Made by a program: the position numbers and the translations under genes
Shown here: piece by piece, positions 509 through 24,095 of the stretch
Numbering within the stretch: position 1 is the stretch's first letter
Layout: each line of letters starts with the position of its first letter
Source: a virus
Strand: one strand, 5' to 3'
DNA length: 27,582 bases
Virus record (IMG/VR): IMGVR_UViG_3300025716_000007
Span: 1-27,582 of that record
Notes under the pieces: model-generated
Databases searched by the model: none
What the model was told of the DNA's origin: nothing
Seen by the model: only the letters and a program-made list of their open reading frames with translations

Positions 509-2305
509 TTAATTATTCATATAATTATGTGTCCAAACTGAATTAGTGGCGTCATATATAAATATATGCAATTGTGAATTTGTTATTTCTACAGACGATT
601 GAGTTCCTGCAAATCCATCTTGTATTGTTCCACCAATCCACATGTTAGCTATCCCGCTTTTTCTTACAAGAATAACCTGACCATCTTCTGCATCTGTTGG
701 TAAATTAGCAGCATAATCACTCCCTCCATTGCTTATACCTCTTAATATGCTATCCATGTTTGTAATTTGAAAGGGGTTGGCTGATTCTGTAAATCTCCTC
801 ATTCTTAATCTAAATCCACATATATTCCCTTTTGGTATGTATAATGCATGATTCCCTGTCATTACCTCACTATCATAAGCAGGAGCACCTGTGCAATATA
901 AATACATACAAGCATTAGCGTATTCTCCCGATGTTGGAATCCTATTACTTTCTATTCGTGCAGGACAAGATAAAGCGCCTCCTGTTGTGCTAGGCATAAC
1001 ATCTCCACCCATCCAAATATAATTGTCACTATTATTGAATCTAATTAAAGAGGCATTTAATATCAATTGTTCGTTAGTTGTTCCCGCAGAATTTACAGTG
1101 AATATTCCTACTGCACCTGTAGAATTTGGATTAAAAGAAGGAGCTGACCTACTTCCTGAATATCTTGACGTAAAATCTACATAATCATTGCCAGTAGAAT
1201 AATTTACCGTCCAATCTTCGTAACTTTTGCTAGCCACATGTGCGGCGAGTAATATCGGTGTTGATTGATTAGTTGTGACGGGTATTGCAAAAGAAACTCC
1301 ATCTAATATAATAGCCTGTGTTCCATTTGTTGTTACTCCCGATCTGAAAGTTAACCTGTCAGATTCTTCATTACCTACTGTTGCTGAAAGTTGAGAAGAA
1401 GAAATGACGAACGGTCCGATATTACCCGTATTTGATATTATCTTTCCTGAAAGTTCAGCATTATTGCAAATAAGTTTTCCTGTTGAATCAAGACTGAATG
1501 CAGTTCCGTTTGATATAGATCCGTCTGCCGATACATTCAAAGCTCCTAATTTACTTCCACCTATAACGTTTAGAATTCCTTTTAAATAAACATTCTGTGC
1601 ATATAACCCATATCCCGATATACTAGGAAAATCTGTGTCTACTATTCCATCTAAATCTCCAAATGTAGCTTTTAATTTTCCTGTAGTACTAGCAGAATTT
1701 AATCCATTGAGCACTTCTATCCTAGGCTTCCCGTCTTCACTTGCAACTAAGTATAAAGCTCCCTGCCTTGCAGTATTAGTGGTATTTCCCATTTGTACGA
1801 GTTCGTCTCCGACTTCGGGCAAACAATTACTAAATTCTATTGGCAAAGTATAGGTAAATGTATTATCATGATCTAAATTAATTGCATTCACTGTAATAGT
1901 ATGATCTGTTACCGATTCTACTTTTGCCCAATAATATTTACTATTGGTTGTTCTAAATGTTTGGCATCTTATCAAATCATTTTCAGCGAATGACATATCA
2001 CCGTCTATCTCTAAAGTATATACTCCACCTGCATAAGATACAGATTTTATTTTTCCATTTGCCGGACTAATAACCATACCTCCATTTACAGATCGTAATT
2101 TACTTATTATCAATTCAAATATGGTCATTACTTTACGCACGGTTAATGTATCTATTTCCATATTCCATACGTCCGAATCATTCCAAAGTTTAAATCCATT
2201 TCCAGCCAATCCGCTAGTAAATGTATCTGATACGATTGATCCGTTTAGTTTTATATTATCTACACTTAACAATCCCCTAATACCAACATCTTTCAGAAAT
2301 ATCAT
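509..2305 (-). CDS. Fibre-like tail protein (598 aa), probably the C-terminal part of a split hub-fibre protein
   Basis: This is a long beta-rich protein typical of Bacteroidota phage central or side fibres. Near residues 45-75 is a segment WNMEIDTLTVRKVMTIFEL, followed by VNGGMVISPANGKI, which recurs in tail proteins of this phage group as I know them. The middle is Ser/Thr/Asn/Gly-rich beta repeat (residues about 215-430, for example KLGALNVSADGSISNG). The C-terminus is aromatic and Asn-rich, as in fibre tips. The ATG at 2305 is unlikely to be the original start. The frame is open 22 codons further upstream and reads YLSKLKDDTAAG just before it, a conserved linker of such proteins, back to the TAA that ends the 704-aa hub. 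No obvious ribosome-binding site supports the ATG. The likely role is host-surface recognition at the tail tip. Confidence 0.75.
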   Translation of the reverse strand: MIFLKDVGIRGLLSVDNIKLNGSIVSDTFTSGLAGNGFKLWNDSDVWNMEIDTLTVRKVMTIFELIISKLRSVNGGMVISPANGKIKSVSYAGGVYTLEIDGDMSFAENDLIRCQTFRTTNSKYYWAKVESVTDHTITVNAINLDHDNTFTYTLPIEFSNCLPEVGDELVQMGNTTNTARQGALYLVASEDGKPRIEVLNGLNSASTTGKLKATFGDLDGIVDTDFPSISGYGLYAQNVYLKGILNVIGGSKLGALNVSADGSISNGTAFSLDSTGKLICNNAELSGKIISNTGNIGPFVISSSQLSATVGNEESDRLTFRSGVTTNGTQAIILDGVSFAIPVTTNQSTPILLAAHVASKSYEDWTVNYSTGNDYVDFTSRYSGSRSAPSFNPNSTGAVGIFTVNSAGTTNEQLILNASLIRFNNSDNYIWMGGDVMPSTTGGALSCPARIESNRIPTSGEYANACMYLYCTGAPAYDSEVMTGNHALYIPKGNICGFRLRMRRFTESANPFQITNMDSILRGISNGGSDYAANLPTDAEDGQVILVRKSGIANMWIGGTIQDGFAGTQSSVEITNSQLHIFIYDATNSVWTHNYMNN

Positions 2306-2374
2306 ATTCCCTGCTGCGGTATCATCCTTTAATTTACTTAAATAATAATTACCTCCATAAGTAGCTATTAATTA
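2306..2374 (-). other. In-frame TAA and open linker between the tail hub and fibre frames
   Basis: The TAA at 2374-2372 ends the hub protein (SGLSKDSVQ-stop). In the same frame, 22 sense codons then lead to the ATG at 2305 (distance 69 bases, 23 codons including the stop). The intervening codons read LIATYGGNYYLSK, then LKDDTAAGN, which looks like normal protein joining the two parts. A single protein of about 1325 residues would result if the TAA were a sense codon or read through. The codon context is CAG-TAA-TTA. This may be a real nonsense mutation, a sequencing error, a programmed readthrough or a genuine gene split; the sequence alone does not decide. Confidence 0.7.
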
Positions 2375-4486
2375 CTGAACAGAATCTTTACTTAATCCTG
2401 AACCCGAAGATATACTAGTAATACTATTTTGTATCTTTTGTATTGTGGTAGATTCTACATCATCATCAAGCGTTATATCATAAGAAGGTAATAATTTAGA
2501 TCCCTCTGTGATTGTAACGGTTTTAATAAATACATTCTCGTCAAGTGATAAATCAGTATCGGTAAAGTCAAACAAATCTCCTGCCTTGATAATATTAGAT
2601 ACAGACGGATGATCATTCATCCAAATCTCATCTATTTTAATTGTATAGGTATATTTTGTTTCATCGTTCTTTGCTAAATATGCTCGTCCATAAGAAAGTA
2701 ACTTTTGTGAAGCCGCCTTTACATAGACATCAGGCAACTTTGTGTTTACCAATACGAACATATCGTCTGCGTTTATTTTATAAGAACTATACGGATATGC
2801 TTTGTTTATATTTGTATCTTGTATTCTAGTACAGGTAAATACATATCTAGTATAACCTAAAGTAGTGTCTTTTTCTATTTTATTTATATCGAATGTTCTA
2901 CCCGTACAATTACCACTAATCATTGATATTTGCATCTTATCAGAAGAAGCATAGTAATAATTATCTCCTGACTTTAATGTAAGATCAAACCCTAAATCTT
3001 TTATATATATTTTGAATGTACTTTGCCATGTACTATAACTACTATCGGAAGTGGTCGGTATCGTTCCATCATCTGTAGGATTATCGCATGAATATATCTC
3101 GTCTAATCTACCATTATCATTTTCTTTTATAGATAGACTTATTCCAGCAGCCTCAACTTGTGCAACTGTCATATAAGATATGGTAGGATATATTTCAGGA
3201 TGTTGAGCGTCCGAGCCATCAAAGAATACTTCTGCTTGTCTTACTCCTAATTTAGAGATGTTTTCAGAATCAATATATACCTCACTAGGATTATTTGTTA
3301 CTAGCGGGAAGTCGGGAAGCATTAAATGATTTACAGCTAGATTATCAGATATATTACTATCGTAACTAACATATTCACTTGATAATAAATCCAAATAAAG
3401 ACCTGTGGTAACATAAATAGTTGATCCGACTGAAACACTTGCTGTAAAGTTTGCATAATTTGGATCAGCTTTATTTATTTGTGCATAAACTCCCGTATCT
3501 CCATCAATCCCGTTTGTCATTATAGCACTTACCTCGTAATTACCGCTCTTTAGTTTTACGCTATAATAATTCTGTATAAGTGTTTCACCTGTTGAAAATA
3601 TCTTATTCCTATAGTATTTAGCACCAAATGGGAAATTTAATGTCATTAAAAAACCATACGTTACACCTAAATAAGTACGTTCATATGTAGGACTTATTTG
3701 AGAGGCAGAAGTTATTCCTTTCCCCGTTAATTGGGCATAATATTTAGTAGCAATATTCTTTGTAGACCCATAACAAAATAGCCTAGTTACAATTAATGAA
3801 TCTTGTTTTGTCGTTTGCTGTAAGTCATATATTCCATTACCCTTGCCATAACCGAACGTAGCTCCCACAGATGTACCCGAAGGCGCAACGGTAATAACTC
3901 TACCACGAATGATATAAGTTACTCTAAACGTGTTATATAACTCTGCAAGAGCTTCCATACAAGACTTATTACTAAGACTTAATGTAGCATCAATAGGGTC
4001 ATTCCCACTTTCCGTACAAAGAACTTCATTTGCATCTTTAAGATTTTCGGTAATAACATTTATAGTCCAAGCCTGATCACCCGTATAGCTTTCATTCATA
4101 TTTGCTAATATTCTGTCTGCCAAAGTTTGTGCAGAAGAACAATAGAAATTTGCATCAGGAAGCCCTGTCCATGTTAATCCATTATCATTTGAAACGATAT
4201 CTAAAAATAATCTACGTGAAAGTTCATCGGAAGCAGGATTCATTTTCATACTTGTGTACTTGAATGAATCCCCGCGTGAAGAATTTCTAGCAGTCTTTTC
4301 TACAGCGGGTACATAATTCAAATAAAAGCGTTCAGTCCTATAATCGCAATAATCCCCTATTTCAAATGCTACAGGTGACGGTGATTCTAGTTCAGCGTCA
4401 AGATAACATTCTCCCATAAAAGTATCGTGATAGGTAAATTTCTTTACTTCCGCTCTTTGAACCCCTGTACTACTATAGATTATCAT
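2372..4486 (-). CDS. Tail hub / tail-tip (Tal- or gp44-like) protein, 704 aa
   Basis: It follows the distal-tail-like gene, the usual place of the baseplate hub (Tal) that closes the siphovirus tail tube. The N-terminus (MIIYSSTGVQRAEVKKF, then FMGECYLDAELESPSPVAFEIGDY) is a beta domain like that of hub proteins. Residues about 90-200 contain a segment like other tail-hub proteins: a TLADRILANMN helix followed by SCMEALAELYNTFRVTYIIRG. The C-terminus (SYGRAYLAKNDE..., then IIKAGDLFDFTDTDLSLDENVFIKTV) is the beta segment that ends many hub domains before a coil or fibre. No lysozyme or peptidase motif is evident. The reading frame stops at TAA in what looks like the middle of a larger protein. 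Confidence 0.75.
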   Translation of the reverse strand: MIIYSSTGVQRAEVKKFTYHDTFMGECYLDAELESPSPVAFEIGDYCDYRTERFYLNYVPAVEKTARNSSRGDSFKYTSMKMNPASDELSRRLFLDIVSNDNGLTWTGLPDANFYCSSAQTLADRILANMNESYTGDQAWTINVITENLKDANEVLCTESGNDPIDATLSLSNKSCMEALAELYNTFRVTYIIRGRVITVAPSGTSVGATFGYGKGNGIYDLQQTTKQDSLIVTRLFCYGSTKNIATKYYAQLTGKGITSASQISPTYERTYLGVTYGFLMTLNFPFGAKYYRNKIFSTGETLIQNYYSVKLKSGNYEVSAIMTNGIDGDTGVYAQINKADPNYANFTASVSVGSTIYVTTGLYLDLLSSEYVSYDSNISDNLAVNHLMLPDFPLVTNNPSEVYIDSENISKLGVRQAEVFFDGSDAQHPEIYPTISYMTVAQVEAAGISLSIKENDNGRLDEIYSCDNPTDDGTIPTTSDSSYSTWQSTFKIYIKDLGFDLTLKSGDNYYYASSDKMQISMISGNCTGRTFDINKIEKDTTLGYTRYVFTCTRIQDTNINKAYPYSSYKINADDMFVLVNTKLPDVYVKAASQKLLSYGRAYLAKNDETKYTYTIKIDEIWMNDHPSVSNIIKAGDLFDFTDTDLSLDENVFIKTVTITEGSKLLPSYDITLDDDVESTTIQKIQNSITSISSGSGLSKDSVQ

Positions 4487-21100: not shown

Positions 21101-22576
21101 ATGGAACAAGAAGAAATTATATTAAGGTTAAACGAGGCTATAAAGGAAATAAGTAAGCCAAAGAATGATGGTTTTAAAATAGGTATTGGAATCACTACCC
21201 ATAATCGTTATGACATATTCAAAGAAACATACGATAAGATGAATGAATTCTTACCCGAAAATTGTAAACTCGTAGTGGTAGATGATTGTTCTGATACACC
21301 CGTAAAAGAAGCAACGTATAGATTTAATACCAATGTGGGCATTGCAAGAGGAAAAAATAAATGTATTGAATTACTGTATGATGCAGGGTGTGAACATTTC
21401 TTTATTTTTGACGACGATTGTTATCCCGCATGTAAAGATTGGTATAAAACCTATATTGAATGTGGAGAAAATCATTTGAATTATATATTTGAAGAGTTCT
21501 CCGGCACACCACAATTTATGCTTAAAGATACCTGTAAACTATATGAAGACGGTAAGATTGTAGCTTATTCCCATACGCGCGGGTGTATGTGCTATTATCG
21601 TAGAATATGTTTTGACAAAGCAGGTGGAATGTCACCAATATTTGGTAAATGGGGATATGAACACCCCGACCTATCTAATAGAATATATAACTTAGGATTA
21701 ACTAAGTTCAAATATATGGATGTTCCAAATAGTAGTAATTACATATATTCTCGCGATGAGCATACAAGGAATGCAGGTTCTACAGTTATAGGGGATGAAA
21801 GGACTAAGCAAATACAAAGGAACTCTGTAATATATGATAGTAGAAAACATTCTACTGAATATGTAGACTTTAGAGAAAGAGAAAATATTATTATAACTTG
21901 CTATTTCACAAAACTGAAAGACTTCCAAAGAAACGAGAATATATTCAAATCTGATACTTCATTATTACAACCGTTAATTGATTCAATGAAAGGGCAGAAA
22001 CTTGTTATTTTAAACGATTGTTTTGAAAACCATACAGATGGTAGCATAGAGTTCGTTCGTGTAAATACGGGTATGGCTAGGGTATACTATCAAAGATGGG
22101 TAAGTATATTAGAGTATCTTATTTTGAATAAGAATAAAATAGGTAATGTGTTTTGTATTGATGGAACGGATGTGGTATTATTGAATAATCCATTTGATAA
22201 GATGAAAGAGAATGTATTGTATACAGGTGATGAGCCTAATAAACTTTCATGCGAATGGATGATGAAAAATCATTTAAACCCTATCCTTCAAAAATTCATG
22301 AATGAGAATAAAGATGAAGTATTATTAAATGCCGGAATCATAGGAAGTAGTTTAGATAATATTACTCGATTTGTTTCTACATTACTATCTACTTATTCTG
22401 AAATGGTGAGTGAAAAGTATTTTAACCAACGAGAAGATAGCGGAGATAGCGATATGGGACTATTCAATTATATTGCGCGTACTTACTTTGGAAATATTAT
22501 TCAACATGGAACAAAGGTAAATACTGTTTTTAAGGATGATAAGGCAAATGATGTGAGTTGGTTTAAGCACAAATAA
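21101..22576 (+). CDS. Two-domain glycosyltransferase (GT2-type N-terminal domain plus a second GT-A-like domain), 491 aa
   Basis: The N-terminal 250 residues look like family 2: IGIGITTHNR (27-36), KLVVVDDCSD (56-65), NVGIARGKN (78-86), the metal-binding FIFDDDC (101-107) and GKWGYEHPDLSNRIY (182-196). Residues 262-491 form a second unit: IIITCYFTKLKDF, GNVFCIDGTDVVLLNNPF (D354 and D357 could be a DxxD nucleotide-sugar site), VLYTGDE, and LLNAGIIGSS (408-417), the pattern of GT-A enzymes that transfer from UDP- or GDP-sugars. The sugar donor and acceptor cannot be read. No membrane segment is present, so it acts in the cytoplasm. It follows the MuF gene by 2 bp and precedes a smaller glycosyltransferase by 3 bp, within the head operon, which suggests modification of virion proteins. 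Confidence 0.85.
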   Translation: MEQEEIILRLNEAIKEISKPKNDGFKIGIGITTHNRYDIFKETYDKMNEFLPENCKLVVVDDCSDTPVKEATYRFNTNVGIARGKNKCIELLYDAGCEHFFIFDDDCYPACKDWYKTYIECGENHLNYIFEEFSGTPQFMLKDTCKLYEDGKIVAYSHTRGCMCYYRRICFDKAGGMSPIFGKWGYEHPDLSNRIYNLGLTKFKYMDVPNSSNYIYSRDEHTRNAGSTVIGDERTKQIQRNSVIYDSRKHSTEYVDFRERENIIITCYFTKLKDFQRNENIFKSDTSLLQPLIDSMKGQKLVILNDCFENHTDGSIEFVRVNTGMARVYYQRWVSILEYLILNKNKIGNVFCIDGTDVVLLNNPFDKMKENVLYTGDEPNKLSCEWMMKNHLNPILQKFMNENKDEVLLNAGIIGSSLDNITRFVSTLLSTYSEMVSEKYFNQREDSGDSDMGLFNYIARTYFGNIIQHGTKVNTVFKDDKANDVSWFKHK

Positions 22577-22579
22577 GTT

Positions 22580-23137
22580 ATGAATGTAAGTTTTATTTCA
22601 GCATATAATACGGATAAGAACATAGGCGGTGAATACAACCGTCTTATTGAGAATATAAATGATGAATACATATTTATCAAGGACGGTGATGTGTTATTTC
22701 TTACTCCTGATTATGGAGATAAGATAATGGATATCATAAATAGTAATCCTGAATATGACATTATAGGTTGCCGGACTAATAGATTGGCAGGAAAACATCA
22801 GCGAGTTGGTGAACTAAATTCAATACCTGATATTGATTACCATATTGAAATAGCAAATAAAATATGGGCTACATGTGGGAACTTAGTACTACCTACTAAA
22901 ATAAACGTTGCTGCAATGTGCATGATCATTAAACGTAAAGTATGGGAACGAATAAAGTTCCCTGAAAATAATATATGCTTTGATAGGATATTCTGTGAAA
23001 AAGCATTATCTTTAGGGTATAAGTTAGGAATAGCGCAAGGGTTGTACGTCTTTCATCTTTATAGATGGGGACATGATCATCCCGAATCGTATACAGGACA
23101 TTTAATAAAGAATAATTATGGAATCAAGGGAATTTAA
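22580..23137 (+). CDS. Small glycosyltransferase-like protein, 185 aa
   Basis: It looks like a short GT-A/GT2 enzyme. It starts with a Rossmann-like MNVSFISAYNTD, then EYNRLIENINDEYIFIKDGDVLFL, where DGD (about residues 34-36) would be the DxD metal and nucleotide-sugar site. Later it carries an aromatic and charged segment with HLYRWGHDHPESYTGH that could be the catalytic end, resembling the W-G-x-D-x-D/H-x of related enzymes. At 185 residues it is short for a full GT2. The gene is 3 bp after the two-domain glycosyltransferase and its 3' end overlaps the next gene by 20 bp. The two enzymes probably act in series on one glycan, though one could be an accessory subunit. Confidence 0.65.
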   Translation: MNVSFISAYNTDKNIGGEYNRLIENINDEYIFIKDGDVLFLTPDYGDKIMDIINSNPEYDIIGCRTNRLAGKHQRVGELNSIPDIDYHIEIANKIWATCGNLVLPTKINVAAMCMIIKRKVWERIKFPENNICFDRIFCEKALSLGYKLGIAQGLYVFHLYRWGHDHPESYTGHLIKNNYGIKGI

Positions 23138-23658: not shown

Positions 23659-23748
23659 TTGTTTTAATTTAAAAAGTAGGGATGTTCGTATAACAAATTA
23701 CAACCATTCTCTATAATTATAGCAATCTACTTTTCCATCTAAAGGTTG

Positions 23749-23821
23749 AGCCGATAGCAGGATTCAAACCCGCGACATAAACATTACAAATGTTCCGTTC
23801 TATCAACTGAACTATATCGGC
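23749..23821 (-). tRNA. tRNA-Thr (anticodon UGU)
   Basis: The cloverleaf reads on the minus strand: acceptor GCCGATA/TATCGGC (perfect), D stem GTTC/GAAC, anticodon stem GAACA/TGTTT with loop TTTGTAA (anticodon TGT), T stem GCGGG/CCTGC with loop TTTGAAT, and a T at the discriminator. CCA is not encoded. UGU reads ACA, a codon favoured in AT-rich genes. Confidence 0.9.
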
Positions 23822-24022
23822 AATTCAAAAGTGGGGTAGCTATGAACTAAACTTTAATTTAAACATAACCTTACACCCACTTCCTAACTAGTCACTATTA
23901 CAATGTTATTAATAATACTAGCTATGGATTTTCATAAGTCTAAGAAATACCATCTAAAGCAGTAGGTTTTCTGTTCCCAAGCGAACCTCTTACTCGGTTT
24001 GTTAGACGTTGAAAGCGATGGG

Positions 24023-24095
24023 CGCGAACAGTAGGAATCGAACCTACGACCACTTGATTAACAGTCAAGGGCTCTACCAACTGAGCTATATTCAC
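24023..24095 (-). tRNA. tRNA-Asn (anticodon GUU)
   Basis: The cloverleaf reads on the minus strand: acceptor GTGAATA/TGTTCGC with two G-T pairs, D stem GCTC/GAGC, anticodon stem CTTGA/TCAAG with loop CTGTTAA (anticodon GTT), and T stem GTAGG/CCTAC with loop TTCGATT. The discriminator is G, usual for tRNA-Asn. CCA is not encoded. Confidence 0.95.

Follow-up and report, generated by a model that had tools for sequence, protein, structure and literature searches.

Organization of the hub-fibre locus

The window analysed here, i.e., the whole 27,582-base stretch of an IMG/VR virus record classed as linear and probably a fragment, carries on its minus strand a tail-protein locus interrupted by an in-frame stop codon. 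Translation of positions 4486-509 (-) yielded a single register composed of 704 amino acids, one stop, 22 sense codons and a 598-residue stretch opening with ATG and closed by TAA—1325 positions in total (704+1+22+598). This confirmed the coordinates and lengths with which a sequence-only reading of the same DNA had placed a hub and a fibre frame in one register, separated by one TAA and 22 codons. The features of the locus, with the evidence for each, are:

2375-4486 (-): tail-tip hub part, 704 aa, of an interrupted hub-fibre protein (PHROG matches; homologues 33-52% identical; AlphaFold2 and Foldseek)
2372-2374 (-): in-frame premature TAA (translation; 0 stops in 70 alignments crossing the site)
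2306-2371 (-): linker LIATYGGNYYLSKLKDDTAAGN, 22 sense codons past the stop, joined to the hub in homologues (16 of 22 residues identical to the nearest relative, L158)
509-2305 (-): fibre part, 598 codons from an ATG, in the hub's register, the ATG being probably an internal methionine (fibre families; Dysgonomonas prophage matches; poor start context)

The fibre frame terminates in a TAA at 511-509 (-), with no other stop between 2371 and that point. By our estimate, a 620-codon stop-free frame directly past a stop has a chance of about 0.925^620 in DNA of 33% GC—an open frame of this length is thus far beyond chance.

Among PHROG families, the hub part has matches in several that comprise long phage proteins, and it is homologous over its length to one-piece tail hub-fibre proteins of Bacteroidota, with the homologues found in both viral contigs and bacterial genomes. 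An AlphaFold2 model of moderate quality (mean pLDDT of 72) was compared with known structures using Foldseek, which returned the monocin tip 9j1k (E = 2.8e-8), Listeria gp18 (3gs9, E = 3.0e-8), Mu gp44 (1wru) and T4 gp27 (1k28), the TM-scores against gp27/gp44-type hubs being low at about 0.2 by query length. These matches place the modelled fold with the gp27-type baseplate or tail hubs, and the protein is accordingly predicted to be a tail-tip hub with a fold of the gp27/Mu gp44/Listeria gp18 type; fusion to a fibre, however, is no feature of that fold. A sequence search of the PDB with the hub profile gave no match. We also observed a segment of approximately 120 residues (hub residues 254-378, about 3353-3727 (-)) that occurs in some relatives (e.g., L005) and is missing from LoVEphage and the Dysgonomonas prophages; this segment is a domain gained or lost within the hub.

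The fibre frame matches the tail fibre family phrog_33450 (E = 5.5e-50) and has homologues of its own in 71 phage records, including Bacteroides phages p00, B40-8 and B124-14. A search near the fibre for repeats of an invertible or diversity-generating type revealed nothing convincing.

Homologues are open at the site of the stop

Relatives of the hub were drawn from viral contigs and bacterial genomes, and their frames were read at the site homologous to the stop. For 75 distinct homologous loci the match reaches this site; 70 of them give alignments that cross it, all free of a stop at that point. The stop position is variable, with at least 10 kinds of residue among the relatives, and those frames that terminate within their contig do so at least 166 codons past the site. 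The nearest relatives are Dysgonomonas-type prophages (47-52% identity over the hub C-terminus). Alignment of the joined protein to homologous tail proteins, which the sequence-only reading had proposed as a check, gave a single BLASTP match to L158 covering joined residues 379-937 at 45% identity, unbroken at the stop; together with the open relatives, this bears out its suspicion that the TAA splits one tail protein. Moreover, the match between the frame past the stop and Dysgonomonas prophage proteins begins at the first codon and covers residues 1-233, within the hub-bearing frames of 995 and 1635 aa. PHROG families of 961-1386 aa likewise hold hub and fibre matches at successive places of one profile, i.e., 3-224 and 573-803 for phrog_22546 and 5-237 and 515-751 for phrog_17422, which already indicates that relatives carry both parts in one protein.

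Among known systems, several stand closest to the locus. The Dysgonomonas-type prophages—L158/G030, D. alginatilytica (L073) and Dysgonomonas sp. 25 (L072)—are homologous across the stop into the fibre; unlike the window, they have single open frames (2366, 995 and 1635 codons, respectively) and do not contain hub segment 254-378. In LoVEphage (MW660583) and Phocaeicola phage PV4-TP1, hub residues 3-687 match a tail protein at 37% identity, with the linker following in the same frame, and a terminase of LoVEphage type ranks among the best-covering matches. Their tail gene differs in encoding 957 aa with no stop at the site and in having further tail genes downstream, and no counterpart of the window's fibre was present among the matches listed. 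Finally, the minor tail protein of Bacteroides phage p00 (Hankyphage) is one protein of 1338 aa with the same fibre module (37% identity, from post-stop residue 10); it is uninterrupted, and its hub is only weakly related to the one described here.

The uninterrupted hub-to-fibre frame of the Bacteroidota one-piece family is thus broken here by TAA at 2372-2374, a site at which all relatives are open, and because of this interruption we filed the locus as a disrupted gene homologous to that family, not as an intact member. A chimeric assembly was considered and rejected, since both halves find their matches in the same relatives and in a single frame. Neither DNA searches of the phage collection nor single-protein scans of viral contigs found a close relative or a near-identical contig for comparison.

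The linker and the fibre ATG

A conserved YLSK..DDTA.G linker lies right behind the C-terminal helices of the hub, in frame, as in the one-piece family. The sequence-only reading had described this element as one conserved in tail proteins of Bacteroidota phages, and the motif was indeed seen in many of them: a degenerate scan retrieved 21 stretches, many in long hub proteins and several in separate fibre genes. The identity of the 22 post-stop codons to L158 is reached by only 27 of 918 stretches of the same size (top 3%). Had the fibre begun at its ATG, these codons would lie outside any gene product and should have drifted.

An FLSKxxDDTAxG linker was also observed in fibre genes separate from a hub (L083, L086, L089, L090, L091 and L096), where it stands 52-118 codons past the upstream stop (L083 has an open contig end). 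From this distribution, the linker behaves as a movable joining module, and separate fibre genes are a real option in this phage group. None of these genes, however, starts after the linker, as a start at 2305 would require. The sequence upstream of ATG 2305 scores -7.7, the lowest of the 28 genes in the window, a value equalled or exceeded by 76% of internal ATGs, in agreement with the earlier remark that this codon has no clear ribosome-binding site. In addition, no in-frame ATG, GTG or TTG occurs between the stop and this ATG. The hexamer GGAGGT within the linker was tried as a ribosome site and discarded: it encodes a Gly-Gly pair that some homologues share, and an in-frame start at suitable spacing is lacking beyond it. 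Separate homologous genes starting at this ATG, which the sequence-only reading had named as a finding that would speak against an interrupted gene, were not encountered; in relatives of the hub, the linker is continuous with it. The lack of a stop in homologues, the unbroken homology, the conservation of the linker and the poor context of the fibre ATG all show that the hub and fibre frames form a single, stop-interrupted gene rather than a pair of genes.

Other genes in the window

Two adjoining glycosyltransferase genes lie beside the head genes, at 21101-22576 and 22580-23137 (+) (phrog_1579, E = 6e-146, and phrog_14179, E = 1.5e-39). The first is weakly similar to the beta-glucosyl-HMC-alpha-glucosyltransferase family and to TET-associated glycosyltransferases, and the pair could possibly serve DNA or capsid modification. 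Two tRNA genes, Thr (tgt) and Asn (gtt), occupy 23748-23821 and 24021-24095 (-), between the head gene block and genes that have no family matches. From 24396 to the right end of the window (27582), the encoded proteins gave no significant match in the families searched, and two of them gave none in phage records either.

Possible causes of the interruption

Four causes had been offered by the sequence-only reading; a real split and programmed readthrough are now disfavoured, which leaves a nonsense mutation or an error in the consensus. A genuine split, with a hub complete at 704 aa and a fibre made separately from ATG 2305, draws some plausibility from the separate fibre genes of other phages, some with the same linker, and from the additional tail genes downstream of the 957-aa hub gene of LoVEphage. 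Yet it would need a gene beginning after the linker, for which no homologue gives a precedent, an ATG whose start context is the poorest of the window, and protein-level conservation of 22 codons that would go untranslated, and we regard it as unlikely. Programmed or leaky readthrough of the TAA, with hub-fibre fusions as a minority product in the manner of Q-beta A1, would account for a downstream frame that is open and conserved across the stop. It is less probable again: a leaky stop kept among relatives, as in Q-beta A1, was found in none of the 70 homologous alignments, no RNA structure was detected downstream of the stop (z = -0.34 and -0.17), and the bases after it (TAA-TTA) are similar to the ones that follow several ordinary stops of the window. 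TAA is, in general, the least leaky stop. A variant in which this TAA was gained recently and functions as a leaky stop—yielding mostly short hubs and few hub-fibre fusions, and so tuning the number of fibres per virion—is more doubtful still. The poorest candidate, with hardly any probability, is reassignment of TAA to an amino acid in this phage, to which the one in-frame TAA is the only pointer. TAA is the commonest stop here, ending 22 of the 28 genes counted (TGA ends 5 and TAG 1), and the earlier statement that all three codons terminate other genes in a genome that is not recoded therefore holds. The two tRNAs found read Thr and Asn codons, not stops, and no suppressor tRNA occurs in the fragment; the many in-frame recoded stops, rare terminator use and suppressor tRNA typical of code 15 or code 4 are all missing. 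In gut phages, the recoding that has peptide evidence is that of TAG to Gln (PMC9523058). With TAA as the normal stop, no suppressor tRNA or RNA structure, and a stop that is not conserved, both recoding and programmed readthrough are unlikely.

The main rival to a mutation is an error of sequencing or assembly in the consensus, whereby the real phage would have a sense codon and make the whole 1325-residue protein. The stop was read from the consensus sequence, with the nearest relatives 47-52% identical over the hub C-terminus, and an error would give the same picture there as a real mutation: a single-codon lesion with no change of frame, in surroundings that are intact and conserved as if translated as one protein. 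On the other hand, the window showed no further anomaly, and single-base substitutions are rare in the consensus of short-read contigs. We consider such an error a possible explanation, but not the favoured one. Preference for a nonsense mutation over it is a matter of judgement, not measurement, based on the usual rarity of single-base consensus errors and on the presence of integrated phages among the relatives.

A nonsense mutation as the favoured explanation

The best explanation, which we hold to be probable, is a recent nonsense mutation in a LoVEphage-related phage of temperate type, or in a prophage, that interrupts one hub-fibre gene. The two frames belong to one gene encoding a tail-tip hub with a C-terminal fibre, like its relatives, and a nonsense substitution would have placed the TAA between the last helical segment of the hub and the conserved linker. 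Translation would then stop at the TAA, giving a 704-aa hub with neither linker nor fibre, and the downstream frame would still look intact because the mutation is recent. The tail may assemble, albeit without its receptor-binding extension, and the particle would then probably be defective or deficient in adsorption. The interruption, its absence from all homologues, the unbroken homology across it and the missing start signal of the fibre are observations, whereas the reality of the base, the recent age of the lesion and this phenotype are inferred from them.

For the terminase, portal, major head and tape measure proteins, the family matches extend over most of each protein; with the other structural genes examined looking whole, the lesion appears to be a single one. 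Furthermore, the related phages, LoVEphage and those in Dysgonomonas chromosomes, are of temperate or integrated kinds, which makes mutational inactivation plausible. Prophages of the gut have been described as showing elevated substitution-rate ratios, and mutated integration and excision genes have been identified as one way in which they become inactive (PMC12629997); a nonsense mutation in a tail gene would be a lesion of another kind, though related in its outcome.

The case illustrates how an interrupted gene can be told from two real genes; at this locus, gene callers would misplace both the start of the fibre (at 2305) and the end of the hub. Should the base be an error, one codon of the record is wrong. 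Should it be real, the phage is probably adsorption-defective and offers an example of disabling by one point change. Either way, the understanding of phage tails is left unchanged—the interruption would be an ordinary event, not a new mechanism.
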